NCBI GenBank assembly: GCA_022509085.1
Contig: JAFLTW010000001.1
Location: forward strand, 310,001 to 374,000
From: Muribaculaceae bacterium
Lineage (GTDB): Bacteria; Bacteroidota; Bacteroidia; Bacteroidales; Muribaculaceae
Reading direction: 5' to 3'
DNA: 64,000 nucleotides
The position numbers and the translations under genes are program-made. Below, in pieces: positions 23,468 to 34,355 of this stretch; within the stretch, counting starts at the first letter, position 1, and every line of letters starts with the position of its first letter. The notes under the pieces were generated by a model. That model saw only the letters and a program-made list of their open reading frames with translations, was not told where the DNA came from and searched no databases.

Positions 23468-23827
23468 CTATTCGTCTTGGAAGTCGAATATTTCGGGGTC
23501 AAACCGTAATTCATCCTCCGGATCGTCCAGATAGTCGTCGAGACGGTCGTTATATTCATCCTCGGCATTGGTAGTTTTCAAATTATTGTCATAGTGGAAA
23601 CCTGAGGGCTGATAGCCTGACGTTTCCTTCTCTTTCACCAGCTCTACCCTATCAGAGTCATATTCAGGCACTGTTTTGCCGGAAGTAGACGTTTCGCTAT
23701 CGGTCTTCGGCGTGCAACACATTAAAAATATGCATCCCACCACATAGAGGAGCCTGCATACCGAAATCTTTCCCACTCCTTTACTGATTCCTTTCCAATG
23801 CCTTTTCATATATCTTCCTGATTTCAT
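23468..23827 (-). CDS. Small putative lipoprotein, acidic C-terminus
   Basis: Hydrophobic N-terminus ending FLMCC; overlaps next gene upstream by 47 nt, true start may be internal. Confidence 0.5.
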   Translation of the reverse strand: MKSGRYMKRHWKGISKGVGKISVCRLLYVVGCIFLMCCTPKTDSETSTSGKTVPEYDSDRVELVKEKETSGYQPSGFHYDNNLKTTNAEDEYNDRLDDYLDDPEDELRFDPEIFDFQDE

Positions 23828-24692
23828 GTTTCAAAGATTCAGGCTTTATCACTTTCAACGATTTACTACGAGAAAGGAGGGCCATGATGAAATCATTAGT
23901 TATGCGAATTTGTAGTCTTATTCTGAATTCTGACTCACTATCCACAAGCACCTCCTGTGAAGAATGTAACGGAGTCGTCTTCAAGAAACTTCCGTCTAAG
24001 GGTGAATAGGAAAGCTCCACCTCTTCTATCGGCTTCGATGGGTCGTCCCATATTCCGTAACTATGCATGAAGAGGTTTTTCGTCTCTATTGACTCATCTC
24101 TTTTAAATTTGCTGTCTGTGAGTTCAAGATTGGAGATACGGTCTATTCCAAAAGTTCTCAATTCATTTTTTTCATCAAGGCATACAAGATACCATAACCC
24201 TAAAGATTCTTTGAGGAAATAAGGTTTAACCGTTTTAAATATCTTCTTGTTGTCTTTTCTAACCAGAGTGTAGGAAAATCCAATCACCCAAGATTCTTTT
24301 ATTGCCGTAATAAGAGTAGGAATCTGGTCGCTTCCTTTGGGACGGTGATGCTCGGGAATAATATAACCCGCACTTTGCCTGTCGTCGCTGATTGAGGTCA
24401 AGAGATCAAAATTCATCAACAAATCTTTGTAGCGTATATCTCTATCCTCATCCGACTCGGAAATATAATAACCATACCCGCGTCGGTTTTTTATCACAAC
24501 GCCAAACATTTCTTCAATTTCCTTTATATCCCTCTGAATAGTTCTAAGAGTGAGCCCTACATCATAACCTCTTATAGCAATCTGGTTATTAACATAATAT
24601 ATCAAATCGTCGGACGGTACATATTTTTGTAGTCCCGACAATCGGTTGATGATAAGAATATAGCGAATCAATCGCCCCATTTTCTGTTTCAT
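23781..24692 (-). CDS. WYL-domain transcriptional regulator
   Basis: N-terminal HTH (TLRTIQRDIKEIEEMFGVVIKNRRGYGYYI), WYL-like FKTVKPYFLKESLGLWYLVCLDE. Confidence 0.87.
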   Translation of the reverse strand: MKQKMGRLIRYILIINRLSGLQKYVPSDDLIYYVNNQIAIRGYDVGLTLRTIQRDIKEIEEMFGVVIKNRRGYGYYISESDEDRDIRYKDLLMNFDLLTSISDDRQSAGYIIPEHHRPKGSDQIPTLITAIKESWVIGFSYTLVRKDNKKIFKTVKPYFLKESLGLWYLVCLDEKNELRTFGIDRISNLELTDSKFKRDESIETKNLFMHSYGIWDDPSKPIEEVELSYSPLDGSFLKTTPLHSSQEVLVDSESEFRIRLQIRITNDFIMALLSRSKSLKVIKPESLKHEIRKIYEKALERNQ

Positions 24693-25294: not shown

Positions 25295-25690
25295 CTAGAC
25301 TCTAATGGAGATTTCGTAAATACTGCCAATCGGAATGATAGCGCCTGTATCAAGGGTCAGGAGGGAGTCTGCTTCAATTATCTTGGAAATTCTGCCTATA
25401 GTTGTGGTATACGTTCCTCCTGTTTTCGTCTTGTCCGGCACAAAATAAGTGACGGCAACAGTTTTATCATCGGCATACGCCTCTTGAATCTTCTTTGAAA
25501 TCTCCAACTTTTCCTCGTTGCTTAACTCTATACGGACATTGGTGATGCGTGCCGTCTCTGATATGGCGTCGTCATGACCCGACAGAGCAGCGAAAGGTGC
25601 AAACTGCGCTGCACGGTTTTCCATCGGCATCGGAGTCCGAAATGGCGACCGATAATGCGGAAGCTCTATGATATCATCATAATTCTCCAT
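25295..25690 (-). CDS. YolD-like protein
   Basis: MENRAAQFAPFAALSGHDDAISETAR and stop adjacent to a Y-family polymerase start; YolD-UvrX-like pairing. Confidence 0.65.
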   Translation of the reverse strand: MENYDDIIELPHYRSPFRTPMPMENRAAQFAPFAALSGHDDAISETARITNVRIELSNEEKLEISKKIQEAYADDKTVAVTYFVPDKTKTGGTYTTTIGRISKIIEADSLLTLDTGAIIPIGSIYEISIRV

Positions 25691-27178
25691 CTAAGCTTTA
25701 TGTCCTCCTATCTGTCTGTTGCGTTCTTTCTGGGTAGCGCCGTCTGCGAAGTTCAGCCCTTTGAGCACAACGTTTTTCCCGAATTTCTCACGCAGTCGAA
25801 GTATGGCCTCCTGTTGGCGACGCTCCTTATCTTGTCTCTCCTTTTCAGTCTTCTCGATCCTCCTTATCTCTTCCACATCGTCAAACAGGCTCAACTGCCT
25901 CGCTGCAGGTTGCCCCTTCTTCAAATCGTCTTCCGAAACAAGACGGTTGATCGATAATGTAAGGCGCCTTACAAGCAGTTTAGGATTGATTATCCTGTCA
26001 TAAAGCTCAGCAACCTTCTCAATCAGCACACTTGCCGAAGAGGTCGGTGTCTCGATATTGATTGTGCCGTGGGCATGAGTAGGCACATTCCGTCCGTACC
26101 TGTCAGTATGGATAGTGCCACGATATTGGGAGGCAATATTCTGGTTGGTCAATGACTCCACGTCATAACCCACTGTCAGCACCAGCTGGTCGGTGAGCAG
26201 TCTCTTCTCAATCAATTCATAAGACACTGAGTCTGCCATTTCCAGCGCAACAATTCTTGCCTTTTTAGCCGTATAAGCCGACTGTAGCACCTGCCCGCTG
26301 CTTATCGACTTCGACTCCGGCCTGTACGCCTTCACCTGGGCCATCGTCACGGGTTCCCATCCCCATGCATGGTCAATCAGGAGTTCGGCGTTGACTCCAA
26401 ACAGCTTATAAAGCAGATTCTCGTTGGTCAACGACCGCGTGGCCACATCGCCCATCGTAAACATTCCGTTAAGTGCCAGGGTGCGGGCAATCCCTGGTCC
26501 TACACGCCAGAAATCCGTTAGCGGCCTATGATTCCATAGCTCCTTCCGGTAGCTCATCTCATCGAGTTGGGCAATGCGCACTCCGTCCTTGTCAGGCTGC
26601 ATCTTCTTGGCCTTGATGTCCATCGCTATCTTGCATAGATACATGTTGGTGCCGATACCGGCCGTGGCCGTGATGCCGGTCTCTTTCAGAACGGTACGGA
26701 TTATCTTCATAGCCAGGTCGTGGGCCGAGAGATGGTATAGGTCAATATATTCGGTGGCATCGATAAACACCTCATCTATAGAGTAGACATGGATATCTTC
26801 CGGCGCCACAAACCGCAGATAGATCTCGTAGATCTTAGTGCTGAATGCAATGTAATGCGACATTCGCGGCGGTGCAATCAAGAAGTCCACGGCCAAGTCA
26901 GGGTTCTCTTTCAGCTGGCGGGCGGAATACGACTTTCCGGCATGTCCCCGGTAACGATTTGCATCGTTTACTTTCTGCACCACTTCAAAGAGCCGGGGTC
27001 GACCACCGGTGCCATAGACCTTGAGTGCGGGCGAAACAGCCAGACATATCGTCTTCTGCGTGCGCGACTCGTCGGCTACCACCAGACATGTGTCTAACGG
27101 ATCCAACCCTCGCTCCACACACTCCACGCTTGCATAGAAGCTCTTCAGGTCAATGGCGATATAGCACCTCTCATCCAT
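25691..27178 (-). CDS. Y-family (DinB/UvrX-like) DNA polymerase
   Basis: YIAIDLKSFYASVECVERG, VYSIDEVFID, GITATAGIGTNMYLCKIAMD. Confidence 0.92.
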   Translation of the reverse strand: MDERCYIAIDLKSFYASVECVERGLDPLDTCLVVADESRTQKTICLAVSPALKVYGTGGRPRLFEVVQKVNDANRYRGHAGKSYSARQLKENPDLAVDFLIAPPRMSHYIAFSTKIYEIYLRFVAPEDIHVYSIDEVFIDATEYIDLYHLSAHDLAMKIIRTVLKETGITATAGIGTNMYLCKIAMDIKAKKMQPDKDGVRIAQLDEMSYRKELWNHRPLTDFWRVGPGIARTLALNGMFTMGDVATRSLTNENLLYKLFGVNAELLIDHAWGWEPVTMAQVKAYRPESKSISSGQVLQSAYTAKKARIVALEMADSVSYELIEKRLLTDQLVLTVGYDVESLTNQNIASQYRGTIHTDRYGRNVPTHAHGTINIETPTSSASVLIEKVAELYDRIINPKLLVRRLTLSINRLVSEDDLKKGQPAARQLSLFDDVEEIRRIEKTEKERQDKERRQQEAILRLREKFGKNVVLKGLNFADGATQKERNRQIGGHKA

Positions 27179-27754: not shown

Positions 27755-29242
27755 ATGACAGCTAAAATCGATACCCAGAAAGAAATCATATTCGGGTCTT
27801 CCGACCCAAATATCTCCCGACTGATAAGTCAAAAAGAGAAAAACGGTGAGCTCCGAAAGATAGCGCCACGCATTTACACTACAAACCTCCTTGACAGTGC
27901 TGAACATATAGTGCGCCGAAATCTTATCGATATTCTCACTTATCGATATCCGGAAGCCATCATCAGCCATAGGAGTGCAAAGGAGATGAGACCTACTGCT
28001 TCGGGAGATTTCTTCCTCACTAACTCTACTTCGCGAAGAGTTACCGACCTTCCGGGGATAAAACTCAATTTCGTTAAGGGTCCCAAAGCAATCTCTTCCG
28101 ACATTCCGTTTATGGGGATGTACATATCGGGCGAGCAACGATATATGCTCGAGAACATGCAGACCTCCCGGAAATCGGGAGATGAGTCGCGTGTATTGCC
28201 AATCGAGACTATCGAAAATAAACTCGAGCAGATACTGCTTACAGGCGGTGAAAACCGTCTCAACCAATATCGGGATGAGTTGCGGAATGTAGCAGAAGAG
28301 CTAGGAATGCATACGGAATTCGCAAAAATCAACAGTTTGATCTCCGCGCTCCTTTCCACTCACGAGGCAAGCGTACTCACTACGGAATCGGCAAAGGCTT
28401 TAGCAGTGGGCAATCCCTTTGACCCCGCAAGGGTTGAGCTGTTCGAAATCCTTTTCGACGCCATCAAAGACATGGTTTTCGTTATCAGAAACAACCGTAA
28501 CACCGATGAAGACTCCTTCAGGCTCTTCTCGTTTTTTGAAAGCTACTTCTCAAATTATATTGAAGGTACAGAATTCGATGTAGCCGAAGCCAAGGCGATT
28601 GTGGATTCCGGCATCCCTATACCCCGAAGGGATGAAGATTCTCACGACATTCTCGGCACCTTCAAAATCCTGTCAAATCGCACCGAAATGATGAAGACGC
28701 CCACGTCACCCGAAGAGCTTTTCTCTATTCTCAGCCATCGGCATTCCGTTTTGCTCGAGGGCCGTCCGCATCTTTCTCCCGGTATTTTCAAAATGAAAAA
28801 CAATCGGGCAGGCCAGACAGAATTCGTTGACCACAGACTTGTAAAGGGAACCCTCTCTCAAGGGTTCAAATATTACTCCGCTTTGACCGACCCCTTTGCC
28901 CGCGCCATTTATATGATGTTCATGATTAGCGAGGTCCACCCCTTTAACGACGGCAACGGTCGGCTCGCCCGTATCATGATGAATGCCGAACTGGTAAAAG
29001 CTGACAAGTCAAGGATTATAGTACCCACCGTGTTTCGCGAAGATTATCTGCTTTCTCTCCGAAAACTGACGCGCCACAAAGATCCGACAGCCTACATTAA
29101 TGTAATGACAAAGCTTCACCAGTTTAGCAACAACCTTTATGGCAATGACTTTTCTGAACTGCAAAACTATCTGGCGGCGTGCAACGCCTACGAAGAGCCC
29201 TCGCAAGCCAAACTCCAGATAATCGACCGTTCGGTAAAATAA
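27755..29242 (+). CDS. AbiEi-like wHTH N-terminus fused to Fic domain
   Basis: Fic motif HPFNDGNGRLAR (His codon at 28937); inhibitory-type SNYIEG; N-term ISRLISQKEKNGELRKIAPRIYTTNLLD resembles AbiEi. Confidence 0.85.
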   Translation: MTAKIDTQKEIIFGSSDPNISRLISQKEKNGELRKIAPRIYTTNLLDSAEHIVRRNLIDILTYRYPEAIISHRSAKEMRPTASGDFFLTNSTSRRVTDLPGIKLNFVKGPKAISSDIPFMGMYISGEQRYMLENMQTSRKSGDESRVLPIETIENKLEQILLTGGENRLNQYRDELRNVAEELGMHTEFAKINSLISALLSTHEASVLTTESAKALAVGNPFDPARVELFEILFDAIKDMVFVIRNNRNTDEDSFRLFSFFESYFSNYIEGTEFDVAEAKAIVDSGIPIPRRDEDSHDILGTFKILSNRTEMMKTPTSPEELFSILSHRHSVLLEGRPHLSPGIFKMKNNRAGQTEFVDHRLVKGTLSQGFKYYSALTDPFARAIYMMFMISEVHPFNDGNGRLARIMMNAELVKADKSRIIVPTVFREDYLLSLRKLTRHKDPTAYINVMTKLHQFSNNLYGNDFSELQNYLAACNAYEEPSQAKLQIIDRSVK

Positions 29243-29313: not shown

Positions 29314-32300
29314 ATGAATTTTTTTAAATCGATTTTTCGCGGTTTCTTTGAAGAAGAAATCAATAAACTTCAAAGGGAACTAAATCTAGCAAATAGCCGT
29401 ATACGTGAGAACTATAACACTATTAGAAATCTTAATCTTGATCTTAAACAGACTCAGCAAAATTTAAGCACCTTAAATAACCGGAAGATTGAATTAGAGA
29501 CAACAAATTTACGTTTGCAAGAAAGCATCAGAGATAAAACATCTCAGAACGAGCGTCTCAACAATATGCTTGTTTCGATTCGTCAAGGATATTCAGTACG
29601 TATAGCAGATATCGAGAGAGAGCATCAGAATGAACTTGATACATTAAAAGAGCAAATAGAAAAACTAAGAGAAGAGTCAGCCCTAAAAGAGAATAAGCTT
29701 ACCGAAGACAATGCTATATTGAAACATCATCTGGAGAATAAAACAATTGAATTAAACGACTGTGAAAGCAAGTTGGAAGATGCCCAAATAAAAATTCAAC
29801 AGCTTGAAGCAAAGCTTCAAACAACCATAGAAGACTCCCGGCATAACTCCGATTTCTTAGCTGAAATTATAAGGGAAAAAGAGTTTTTAGAAAGCAAACT
29901 CGAGTCAAAGGAGACTGAAATTCACATGTATAAAGCTGATGTTGACGAACTCCAAAAGAAACTTAAAGAAGCGGGGAACAATTCCCATATTATCCGTGCG
30001 ATGCAAGCGGATATTCGAGCCAAACAGGATACTATCTCACTACATGAAAATGATATTCAGACATTAAATGAAGAACTTTCAAAGGCGAAAGACGCTAAGG
30101 ACAGTTTGTCATCAGAATTAGAGAAACTTCAAAATGATCATAAGGAGCTTCAAGACAAATTCAACCATTTATCGGATATTTCGTCGAGTGCGCTCGAAAA
30201 AGAACAAAAACTGAATAAAGCTCTAACAGAAATTGAAAATCTAACAAGACAACTCGCCCAAAGGCCGACAGATCAAGATCTGGATGATAAACAGAAAATC
30301 ATATCCGAACTAAGGACTCAAATCCAAAAGCTAGAAGAAAAACTCAAAGCATTAAAGAAAACTCCAGAAGAAGATAAGGGGCCTGTATCCCAGATTCCTC
30401 AGCAATCGGGACCGACGCCGGGAGAACCGCAAGGACCGTTCATTGGGAAGCAACCTGCAGCCGGAGGAGAAGGAATACCCGGACGGCTAAATCCCCAAAG
30501 GAAAAGATATCGTCCACTGAAATCTCCGTATGGGAAGAAGCCCAATCCGGTGCCTGAGATTCTTGCCGAAGAAGATTTTCCTCCGGTTGAGAATGACAAC
30601 AAATATTTCGTCTCTCAACGGTTAATAGATCATGTTTTTGATGTCCGTGCAGATGTATTGAAAGATGCAGAGGAAATTTTTAAAGAGAATTCAGTAGAAG
30701 AATTATCCAATCTACAACGAGAATTGCTGCAAGCCATAGATAATAACACTCCCTATTTGGTGTGTCCGTCTTGCAACCAGATGGTTAAAATAGCAAGCCG
30801 CAGATGTGGATGGGGAAATTCATTCCGTAAGGTCCAATATTTCACGCATGCGGTTAGAAACATACCTTGTGATTTAAAAAGAGAACCTACATATTCTCAT
30901 TTGGAGGGCGATTTTGTGGACAACATAGAAGACGTCGATATTAAGAATTTTCGACGACTCCTATATAATGCATTAAACCGCTCTGCAAGCCAAGAAAAAG
31001 GCGTTAAAGATATTGAAGAAAAAGCAACCATCTTCTCGAAGGAACTACCCTTTATGAATCGGCGCGTTGCCGATGTTGCTGCCACATACTTAGACCATCA
31101 ATTGGTATTTGAAATTGTAAGAAACACAACGGGAGTAAGAAAAGTATATGATCGGGACCGTTTTTACCTGATCAATAAAAGACAGGTGTTTTGGATTTTT
31201 GGTTTTAATGCTATAGTTGATTACAATGAACTAAGGAGTGATGTGGCTCATGATATTTTGTTCACAAACAAAAGAAACGTTTTTGTTTTTGACAAAGAGG
31301 CTCAGGACGCATCCTTAGCTCAGGGAGAGCTTGTGCTGAAATGTAACTGGCTTGACGCAGAAGGAGAATGGCATTATCAGATTGATAAGAACGGTAAAAA
31401 TGGCGAACTTATCACCTTAGACCAGATACACTATGATCCGGAGAGCTGTAGACCGTATAAAACAGATGCCGATATGCCTTATTTTGAAGCCCATCCCTAC
31501 GCGGAAAGGCCAAAGCCGGTTTCACGAGAAAAACTAAGGCAAGAATTAAAAGAACTCTACGAATTCGAACAGAAAAGACAAAAAGCATATCAGGACATGG
31601 AAACCTCGGGGACTGGAGTAACTGCATTTTTCGACGGACAGAAATGGGGATTCAAATATAAGGACATGATATTGATTGGGCCAACCTTCACTGAAGCGCC
31701 GCAATTTATTGCGGGTTTGGCAAAAGTAAATAAAGACGGAAGGTTTGGCGTCGTTAACCATTTCGGGGAATATATTCTCAACCCCGATTACAAAAACCTG
31801 GAAATTTTACCCAACGGGGCTATTATCTACGCTTACGAAAATGCATGGAAGGTTTCCGGAATATTGGATGCTATCACCCAGTTCAATACCAACGATGAGC
31901 TTGAAACTGAAATTATATCGGAAGAAAATAATATTTATAAACTCTTAATCCGCAAGAATATTTATAGGAATCAGTTGCCGATAGAATTTTATTTTGTCAG
32001 AGATGATATTTTTTCGAAAAATAACACTACGGGGAAATGGTCACTTTTGTATTCCAAAGGAGCAAAAATAACGAATATCACCTACGATTCAATGGAATTT
32101 ACGGATAATGCCAAAATCAAGGTTACAATAGGCAGGAGAACGCAGATTTTATCGTTAGAGGGGGTCATTTTGGAAGAAGAAAAATATAAATCGCTTTCCC
32201 CCCTCGTTGACGGCTATCAGCTTGCGCAGACTTTCGAGAATACGTATCATCTTATAAACTCGGAAGATGAGAAGATTTCAGACGAATATTTGCAACTTGA

Positions 32301-33459
32301 AAAATTATCGGATGAATATCTTAAATATTACAGGGATAGTAGATGGGGTGTAATAAGGTATGATGGCAAAGTAATTACCAGTCCTGAATATGAGGCTATC
32401 ACCGACTTCGACGGAAATCTTTTCACGGCACAGCTCCCCAATCCCTCTTCGCCTGATAAGCCTTTCGATGGAAAAATTGATGTTGACGGAAGAAGAATTG
32501 AAAATTCAATATCCCACATCGGAGAGTATGAAATAATCGAATCGTTCGGACAATATGGAGCGAAACGAAACAAACTGCAAATCATTCCGACTGTCTACTC
32601 CTCTCTTGAGTTTTGGGGTATTGATAAATTTATTGCAGGCAAAAATGGGAAATACGGTATTGTTGATGATCGGGGTATTATTGTTTTACCACTGGAACAT
32701 GACGGTATTACACCACTTCAAGCAGGAAAATCAAATATTTCTCGCAACGGAAAGATATGGTTTATAAACGATGAGTTACAAATCGTTGAAGATGAAGTAA
32801 TCAATCTTCAAGAGGGATATAAGAAAATCAAGAAGGAAGGCAAATGGGGAATTGTGAATCCACAAGGTGAAACAATAGTTGATTTTCTTTATGACGAAAT
32901 TACTACTTTCCGAGGACGTCTTATCGGGATAATCAACGGAAGGCTCGTTAAACTTTCTGCCTATTATCCTTATCGCTTAAGGATGCGTGGAAAGAATGTG
33001 GCTTCAAAAGAAAAAGATTTGGTTGATGTCGCAGGGATACAATTTCAAATAAGTCCACGTAGAAAAAATATTATGCCTAATGAATCGGTTGATATAGTTC
33101 TTATAAACTGGGTGCCCACTATGAAATTTCCCCAGGTATACACATACGACCCTAAGACTGAGCAAAAAAAGGTTCGGCACATTGATAAACCGGAAGATTT
33201 CATGACCGGGGAATCTTTTATTGCCTGTATTACATCATTTAAGAGAGGCTCTGGTAAGGGGAAAGGGAGAATTAAATGGGTAAATGTGAATATAGATGAA
33301 GATCGAATCTCACATATATCATTAAAGGATTTTGAAAATTCTGATGTCGATGTTTCCAAACTCAAAATAGGGACGAATTTGAACCTAACAAAAATGGGTT
33401 TTGATGAGGAAAATGATAGAACAACTTGGAGTGTGTCCATAGTTACAGAAATCGTATGA
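29314..33459 (+). CDS. 1381-aa protein: coiled coil + CoiA/DUF6035-like Cys/nuclease-like region + WG repeats
   Basis: aa ~1-350 heptad-rich; CPSCNQMVK..YFTHAVRNIPCDLKRE; RRVADVAATYLDHQLVFEIVRNT; WG repeats RFGVVNHFGEYI, RWGVIRYDGKVI, KYGIVDDRGIIV, KWGIVNPQGETI. Confidence 0.7.
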   Translation: MNFFKSIFRGFFEEEINKLQRELNLANSRIRENYNTIRNLNLDLKQTQQNLSTLNNRKIELETTNLRLQESIRDKTSQNERLNNMLVSIRQGYSVRIADIEREHQNELDTLKEQIEKLREESALKENKLTEDNAILKHHLENKTIELNDCESKLEDAQIKIQQLEAKLQTTIEDSRHNSDFLAEIIREKEFLESKLESKETEIHMYKADVDELQKKLKEAGNNSHIIRAMQADIRAKQDTISLHENDIQTLNEELSKAKDAKDSLSSELEKLQNDHKELQDKFNHLSDISSSALEKEQKLNKALTEIENLTRQLAQRPTDQDLDDKQKIISELRTQIQKLEEKLKALKKTPEEDKGPVSQIPQQSGPTPGEPQGPFIGKQPAAGGEGIPGRLNPQRKRYRPLKSPYGKKPNPVPEILAEEDFPPVENDNKYFVSQRLIDHVFDVRADVLKDAEEIFKENSVEELSNLQRELLQAIDNNTPYLVCPSCNQMVKIASRRCGWGNSFRKVQYFTHAVRNIPCDLKREPTYSHLEGDFVDNIEDVDIKNFRRLLYNALNRSASQEKGVKDIEEKATIFSKELPFMNRRVADVAATYLDHQLVFEIVRNTTGVRKVYDRDRFYLINKRQVFWIFGFNAIVDYNELRSDVAHDILFTNKRNVFVFDKEAQDASLAQGELVLKCNWLDAEGEWHYQIDKNGKNGELITLDQIHYDPESCRPYKTDADMPYFEAHPYAERPKPVSREKLRQELKELYEFEQKRQKAYQDMETSGTGVTAFFDGQKWGFKYKDMILIGPTFTEAPQFIAGLAKVNKDGRFGVVNHFGEYILNPDYKNLEILPNGAIIYAYENAWKVSGILDAITQFNTNDELETEIISEENNIYKLLIRKNIYRNQLPIEFYFVRDDIFSKNNTTGKWSLLYSKGAKITNITYDSMEFTDNAKIKVTIGRRTQILSLEGVILEEEKYKSLSPLVDGYQLAQTFENTYHLINSEDEKISDEYLQLEKLSDEYLKYYRDSRWGVIRYDGKVITSPEYEAITDFDGNLFTAQLPNPSSPDKPFDGKIDVDGRRIENSISHIGEYEIIESFGQYGAKRNKLQIIPTVYSSLEFWGIDKFIAGKNGKYGIVDDRGIIVLPLEHDGITPLQAGKSNISRNGKIWFINDELQIVEDEVINLQEGYKKIKKEGKWGIVNPQGETIVDFLYDEITTFRGRLIGIINGRLVKLSAYYPYRLRMRGKNVASKEKDLVDVAGIQFQISPRRKNIMPNESVDIVLINWVPTMKFPQVYTYDPKTEQKKVRHIDKPEDFMTGESFIACITSFKRGSGKGKGRIKWVNVNIDEDRISHISLKDFENSDVDVSKLKIGTNLNLTKMGFDEENDRTTWSVSIVTEIV

Positions 33460-34355
33460 AGAAAATTAAATTGAAAGATCCCATCGCAAGTATGGTGATG
33501 TGCGGAGCTTTGGACATTATTCCTTGCCCCTGGGATACTGTTAATCCAGAAGAAAAAATATTCATTTATTGCGATGGAGTGGACTGTAGCTTTGCCAATG
33601 CAGAATTTGATTTTTCAAAGGAACTGCATAGGCGAATTTATAATGAGTTTTTCTTTGGAAATCTCCCCTCAATTATAGGAGAAGAGGGTTTTATGGGATA
33701 TGTTATGATTGATGATGTCGTGAAACAACACAAAGGATACAATCAAAATTATGAGGACTCAATTGTGGTTAAAAACCCGTCTCGTTTTTCAAATAGATTG
33801 GAAGATTTTGATTTAGAGTTTGAACACCTTCTAAGGATGAAAACAAGCATTCCAAAACTTAACCGAATGAAAATAATTGGGGACGTTTTATATGTGCCTG
33901 TGGGAGAGAGAATATGGGAAAAACTCAAAACAAATCAAGATTGGGACGGCCTTGCAGTTGCTTACGAGCCTTATATGGCGGGGTTAGCACCGAATCCTTT
34001 TAATCTGAATGAGAAAAGAGAACCTATTTCAAAAATAGTGTTCATTCGAAATGGGAGAAAAATATGGGCAGAGTCTGACGGTGCAGGAATTAGCTTTATT
34101 CCAATATTAAACAAGAAAAATAATAAGATCCCAAATAACGATGATCAACGGGAAATTTTGTATATTTTTGTTTTTGGAATTACGACACTTTCATCTGACG
34201 GTTCTACGATAATTTCAAATTGCGTAATAACAGATAATCCCAAACCGATATTTACATATTGTAAAAATTACCAGATGGAAATTCATAAACCCCAAAAAGA
34301 TTTTGTCAAAATACTCTATACACCTATGGGTGGAATGACTCATTGGAAAAGATAA
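33456..34355 (+). CDS. ASCH/PUA-like hypothetical protein
   Basis: MKKIKLKDPIASMVMCGALDIIPCPWDTVNPEEKIFIYCDG...GEEGFMGYVMIDDVV; ATGA overlap (33456-33459) with preceding gene. Confidence 0.55.
   Translation: MKKIKLKDPIASMVMCGALDIIPCPWDTVNPEEKIFIYCDGVDCSFANAEFDFSKELHRRIYNEFFFGNLPSIIGEEGFMGYVMIDDVVKQHKGYNQNYEDSIVVKNPSRFSNRLEDFDLEFEHLLRMKTSIPKLNRMKIIGDVLYVPVGERIWEKLKTNQDWDGLAVAYEPYMAGLAPNPFNLNEKREPISKIVFIRNGRKIWAESDGAGISFIPILNKKNNKIPNNDDQREILYIFVFGITTLSSDGSTIISNCVITDNPKPIFTYCKNYQMEIHKPQKDFVKILYTPMGGMTHWKR

Follow-up and report, generated by a model that had tools for sequence, protein, structure and literature searches.

A CoiA-type protein with a remodelled nuclease core, a coiled coil and WG repeats: a candidate accessory of restriction-type defence islands in Muribaculaceae

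We analyzed a window of 64,000 nucleotides from a Muribaculaceae bacterium (assembly GCA_022509085.1, contig JAFLTW010000001.1, positions 310,001-374,000 of the forward strand), in which an open reading frame on the plus strand (29314..33459) encodes a multidomain protein of 1381 aa, here called CoiA-WG. Its stop codon overlaps the ATG of the gene for a 299-aa ASCH-like partner (P0002; 33456..34355, plus strand) through an ATGA at 33456, as stated in a preliminary description of this DNA. The same description had placed both genes in an AT-rich segment, which is borne out by GC contents of 0.38 for the CoiA-WG gene and 0.35 for its neighbor, compared to 0.53 for the adjacent MscS gene and 0.50 for the window. 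The MscS gene is kept in nine genus relatives and in eight of them adjoins an NDK gene and an M23-type peptidase gene; its 3′ side varies among the nine, none of which carries CoiA-WG or ASCH-like genes there. On this comparison, the segment beside MscS is an accessory insertion. Promoter and terminator scans gave scores no better than those of shuffles.

A Fic gene absent from the preliminary description (27755..29242, plus strand; 495 aa; Pfam Fic 5.9e-11) lies 72 bp upstream of the CoiA-WG gene and is read in the same direction. We considered it as a third member of the unit and rejected it on the basis of its GC content (0.47) and of the neighborhoods of CoiA-WG homologues, in which no adjoining Fic gene was seen; it is probably a separate acquisition. 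The N-terminal ~250 aa of the Fic protein are without a Pfam assignment, and the PADLOC models SoFic and PDC-S04 match its Fic part. Also near the island, the minus strand carries a YolD-like gene paired with a UmuC/DinP-like gene (25295-27178), and close to that pair lies a WYL regulator (23781-24692).

The N-terminal ~350 aa of CoiA-WG (aa ~13-360; 29350..30393, plus strand) matched SMC/Rad50/JetC coiled coils and nothing else, in agreement with the coiled coil of this length described earlier. With PADLOC, the only matches above noise were to JetC/LmuB and were confined to the coiled coil, and none of the known anti-phage system models matched CoiA-WG outside it. A Cys/His module (aa 451-523; 30664..30882, plus strand), likewise anticipated in the preliminary description, passed the Pfam cut-off for DUF7830 (1.1e-7), and its residues C484, C487, H512, and C519 are invariant in 15/15 sequences; the module lies in a low-confidence region of the AF2 model and would be expected to bind zinc. 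It is followed by a match to Pfam DUF6035 (aa 582-668; 3.1e-8, over cut-off), and all seven members of the clade match both DUF6035 and DUF7830. CoiA_nuc was over cut-off solely in L039, a distant homologue that carries DUF7830, DUF6035/CoiA_nuc, 18 WG repeats, and two S1 repeats in this order, all over the Pfam cut-off. Because L039 passes both CoiA_nuc and DUF6035, the CoiA resemblance claimed for the large protein is now tied to a tested match.

In the C-terminal half, the preliminary description had counted at least four WG repeats; we found five WG-type motifs (aa 777, 810, 1010, 1113, and 1177) in a region of serial beta strands in the model (aa ~777-1211; 31642..32946, plus strand), with Pfam WG_beta_rep over cut-off (1.7e-15) and two stretches passing. 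The C-terminal tail (aa 1290-1381; 33181..33456, plus strand), which had been left unassigned, consists of three strands, a helix, and two strands in the AF2 model (model residues 876-951), and its profile aligned with the S1 repeats of L039 in hhalign (E 1.1e-4, probability 56%). We therefore assign it, with moderate confidence, as OB/S1-like. The model itself covers aa 426-1381, was built from 7 sequences, and has a mean pLDDT of 70.6. Foldseek searches with all 956 model residues returned beta-propeller proteins at a TM of ~0.1, which we did not count as proof, and a PDB sequence search with CoiA-WG yielded no match.

The predicted strand order and the motif columns place a PD-(D/E)XK-like core at aa ~541-629 (30934..31200, plus strand). 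In the AF2 model, this core has the order helix-strand-strand-strand-helix-strand (model residues 116-204, mostly pLDDT 64-87), the restriction-endonuclease-like order for which an AlphaFold check had been proposed, so that the corresponding fold is predicted to be present in CoiA-WG. D587 lies on strand 2, E600 on strand 3, and V602 at the position where reference proteins have Q. We compared the motif columns of seven clade members with those of seven reference DUF6035 proteins and a relative from another genus (G324). All seven references contain E-x(2)-H, PD, and E-x-Q; motif III of CoiA-like proteins has been given as EXQ (PMC1913061). In the clade, all seven members carry I or L in place of the motif-I H, AD or VD in place of PD, and ExV in place of ExQ; at the motif-I acid position, six have D and one has G. 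The G324 relative departs differently, with K-x-Q. Read from these columns, the CoiA-type active site is remodelled in the CoiA-WG clade. The earlier claim of a nuclease-like core thus holds for the fold, as indicated by AF2 and DUF6035, and fails for the canonical site, and we rejected a plain nuclease effector with an intact site on these grounds.

The core is nevertheless strongly constrained. Among close homologues, to which this analysis applies alone (dS of the window copy was saturated, and no ratio was obtained for it), dN/dS was 0.03-0.05 in the core versus 0.17-0.24 in the coiled coil, suggesting that the nuclease-fold domain is still used. Together, the constraint on the core and its broken canonical signature point either to a pseudo-nuclease or to an active site that has migrated. 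Migration of catalytic residues is known in the PD-(D/E)XK superfamily, and CoiA-WG could accordingly be a working nuclease effector in which R584, R614, or another residue replaces the motif-III Q and which is activated by its WG or ASCH parts. The invariance of D587, E600, and R614 across the seven clade members, the D at the motif-I acid position in six of them, and the preserved order of the fold are all consistent with such an enzyme. However, the change of ExQ to ExV and the loss of the motif-I H, each without exception in the clade, make a plain nuclease effector doubtful, and both the G at the motif-I acid in one member and the K-x-Q of the G324 relative also speak against activity; we consider a working nuclease unlikely.

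The ASCH-like partner comprises an ASCH domain (aa ~1-120), a second domain (aa ~139-240), and a 60-aa low-confidence tail. P0002 had no direct Pfam match, to ASCH or otherwise, and no PADLOC match. Together with one homologue, it retrieves a protein family from Muribaculaceae whose members are mostly 250-300 aa long. Four of these proteins pass Pfam ASCH, and hhalign of P0002 and the homologue L042 against the four gave a probability of 97.8% and E 1.2e-12 over 192 columns, extending beyond ASCH into the second domain. The profile of the partner family matched ASC-1 in the PDB at 4e-7. The AF2 model of P0002 is of low confidence (pLDDT 55.7); its best Foldseek matches were to TRIP4 ASCH, in three entries with dsDNA, at E about 2e-3. 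Given the hhalign result, the ASC-1 profile match, and the TRIP4 fold match, we regard P0002 as ASCH-like, upholding the earlier assignment as ASCH/PUA-like, and by analogy it may bind DNA. Compared to ASC-1/TRIP4-type ASCH proteins, which it resembles in family profile and fold and whose matched structures include dsDNA complexes, P0002 has a second domain and is without a direct Pfam match. An N6 methyltransferase gene lies within ~2 kb in 7/15 partner-family loci, where a simple uniform model would predict ~0.08, bearing in mind that these loci include a near-identical pair and that one methyltransferase match is weak. Searches of phage, plasmid, and viral records yielded no relative of P0002 itself. 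Its wider ASCH family, in contrast, is well represented among IMG/VR contigs, with 246 matches, 80 of which were kept (L093-L172); in one such contig (L093) a WYL regulator adjoins the ASCH relative.

We then compared the neighborhoods of the CoiA-WG gene, which is sporadic in the genus (7/111 genomes, that is, the window's genome and six others), its homologues coming from Muribaculaceae, Bacteroides, or Bacteroidales MAGs. The related-locus search with the whole 1381-aa protein gave no match; the search with the core alignment recovered the six homologues already known plus two short relatives, and no CoiA-WG relatives were found in viral contigs. The preliminary description had proposed a two-gene unit and a survey for conserved pairing, and here the proposal did not hold, as the exact pair of CoiA-WG and P0002 was seen only once, in the window. 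We rejected a dedicated conserved two-gene system for this reason. In the closest relative (G040, 61% core identity), a different ASCH gene, encoding a GIY-YIG-ASCH protein, lies directly upstream of the CoiA-WG homologue, whereas the ASCH gene of the window lies downstream. An ASCH neighbor occurs in 2/7 CoiA-WG loci, compared to Pfam ASCH in 3/26 sampled genomes. The G040 neighbor (L033:15968-17566) is a 532-aa protein with GIY-YIG (T5orf172/MUG113) and ASCH domains, and the homologue beside it (L033:11201-15823) is split into two ORFs of 1261 and 276 aa, which may represent a real break or an assembly error.

An association was found with a Muribaculaceae type III restriction cassette composed of SNF2-HKD, DUF4391, Mod, and Res. 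Four of the seven CoiA-WG copies are housed inside this cassette, three of them following Res and the fourth, in G035, placed between DUF4391 and Mod. The remaining three carriers have the cassette elsewhere in the genome; these include the window's genome, where it occupies G000:C31:269-9666 (L193) with open reading frames and the CoiA-WG copy lies outside it. Overall, the cassette is present in 7/7 carrier genomes versus 23/104 other genus genomes (Fisher p=6e-5, ignoring relatedness), and most cassette-bearing genomes are without a CoiA-WG gene. In other cassettes, these places are taken by other extra genes, suggesting that CoiA-WG behaves like exchangeable cargo, and the cassette looks as if it had cargo slots. 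Across the cassette loci L193, L194-L202, and L034-L038, the extras at set places are a zeta-toxin-like kinase, Abi-like genes, and unknown genes. The G324 copy has SIR2, AIPR/MzaE, a C5 methylase, and a WG-repeat helicase as neighbors; the helicase (L061:13574-15232) is of ResIII type and lies next to the C5 DNA methylase and the AIPR/MzaE protein.

Since its relatives travel as swappable extras inside restriction-modification clusters, CoiA-WG is probably a phage-defence accessory. On balance, we favor the view that it is a 'cargo' protein that serves restriction-type defence islands as a scaffold or sensor in restriction-modification attack, its putative defence function being read from the neighborhoods. 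The defence architecture suggested in the preliminary description is thereby retained with regard to the restriction-modification neighborhoods of both families, and not with regard to a conserved pair. In the best reading, CoiA-WG would either bind nucleic acid as a scaffold or sensor or act as a nuclease whose site has changed. We envision that the coiled coil would form an extended oligomer, while the zinc module, the altered nuclease fold, the WG repeats, and the OB tail may contact nucleic acid, partner proteins, or both. DNA reading, perhaps of modified bases, could be contributed in the window by the ASCH protein, and CoiA-WG as scaffold or sensor might tune or widen how restriction enzymes attack foreign DNA. 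Any cooperation of CoiA-WG with the type III cassette in the window's genome could take place only in trans. More tentatively, a CoiA-type nuclease may have turned into a non-cutting scaffold or sensor through loss of its signature and fusion to the coiled coil, WG, and OB parts, and may be traded among type III cassettes and coupled to ASCH proteins outside them. Alternatively, CoiA-WG might serve something other than defence (DNA uptake, repair, or upkeep of mobile elements) and merely accumulate near restriction genes as island baggage, which we consider improbable. In favor of this reading, CoiA itself is a competence protein, the site next to MscS is variable in the nine relatives, and viral contigs contain ASCH relatives as well; against it, the G035 copy lies within the operon and CoiA-WG is associated with the cassette throughout the genus.

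A restriction accessory of this kind would share several features with known systems. Like DUF6035 / CoiA_nuc proteins (PF19500, PF06054; PD-(D/E)XK superfamily), CoiA-WG has a zinc-type module followed by a nuclease fold with the predicted core topology; unlike them, it has altered motifs I and III and a fused coiled coil, WG repeats, and an OB tail. Among the phage-defence systems reported from E. coli are proteins with a CoiA domain, with a beta propeller and a nuclease domain, and with a coiled coil and a DNA binding/cleavage domain (PMC9519451). The types of parts are the same, but there they reside in separate proteins, whereas CoiA-WG, known from sequence, combines them in one chain with an altered site. 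ASCH proteins, for which modified-DNA binding has been suggested, are described with type I restriction-modification systems (PMC7641849), a REase-ASCH fusion has been mentioned (PMC10853773), and BapA is an ASCH-like hydrolase in base-modification defence (PMC13160076). In the literature searched, outside which most subscription journals fall, we found no description of a coiled coil, an altered CoiA fold, and WG repeats in one chain, and one paper mentioning DUF6035 and one mentioning DUF4391 in the open-access literature searched appear to concern other subjects. If correct, our interpretation would give the CoiA/DUF6035 fold a new role, with a non-canonical or dead nuclease serving as scaffold, and would mean that accessory genes can be exchanged at dedicated slots in the type III restriction cassettes of Bacteroidales; it also names Mod, Res, SNF2-HKD, DUF4391, and ASCH as concrete candidate partners.

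Finally, a further locus of the partner family (L078:102-3308) contains a CoiA-like gene (CoiA_N just below cut-off), an ASCH-family gene, and HsdM in a row. By its gene content, this is evidently a second, unrelated CoiA-like plus ASCH pairing, beside a type I-like methyltransferase.
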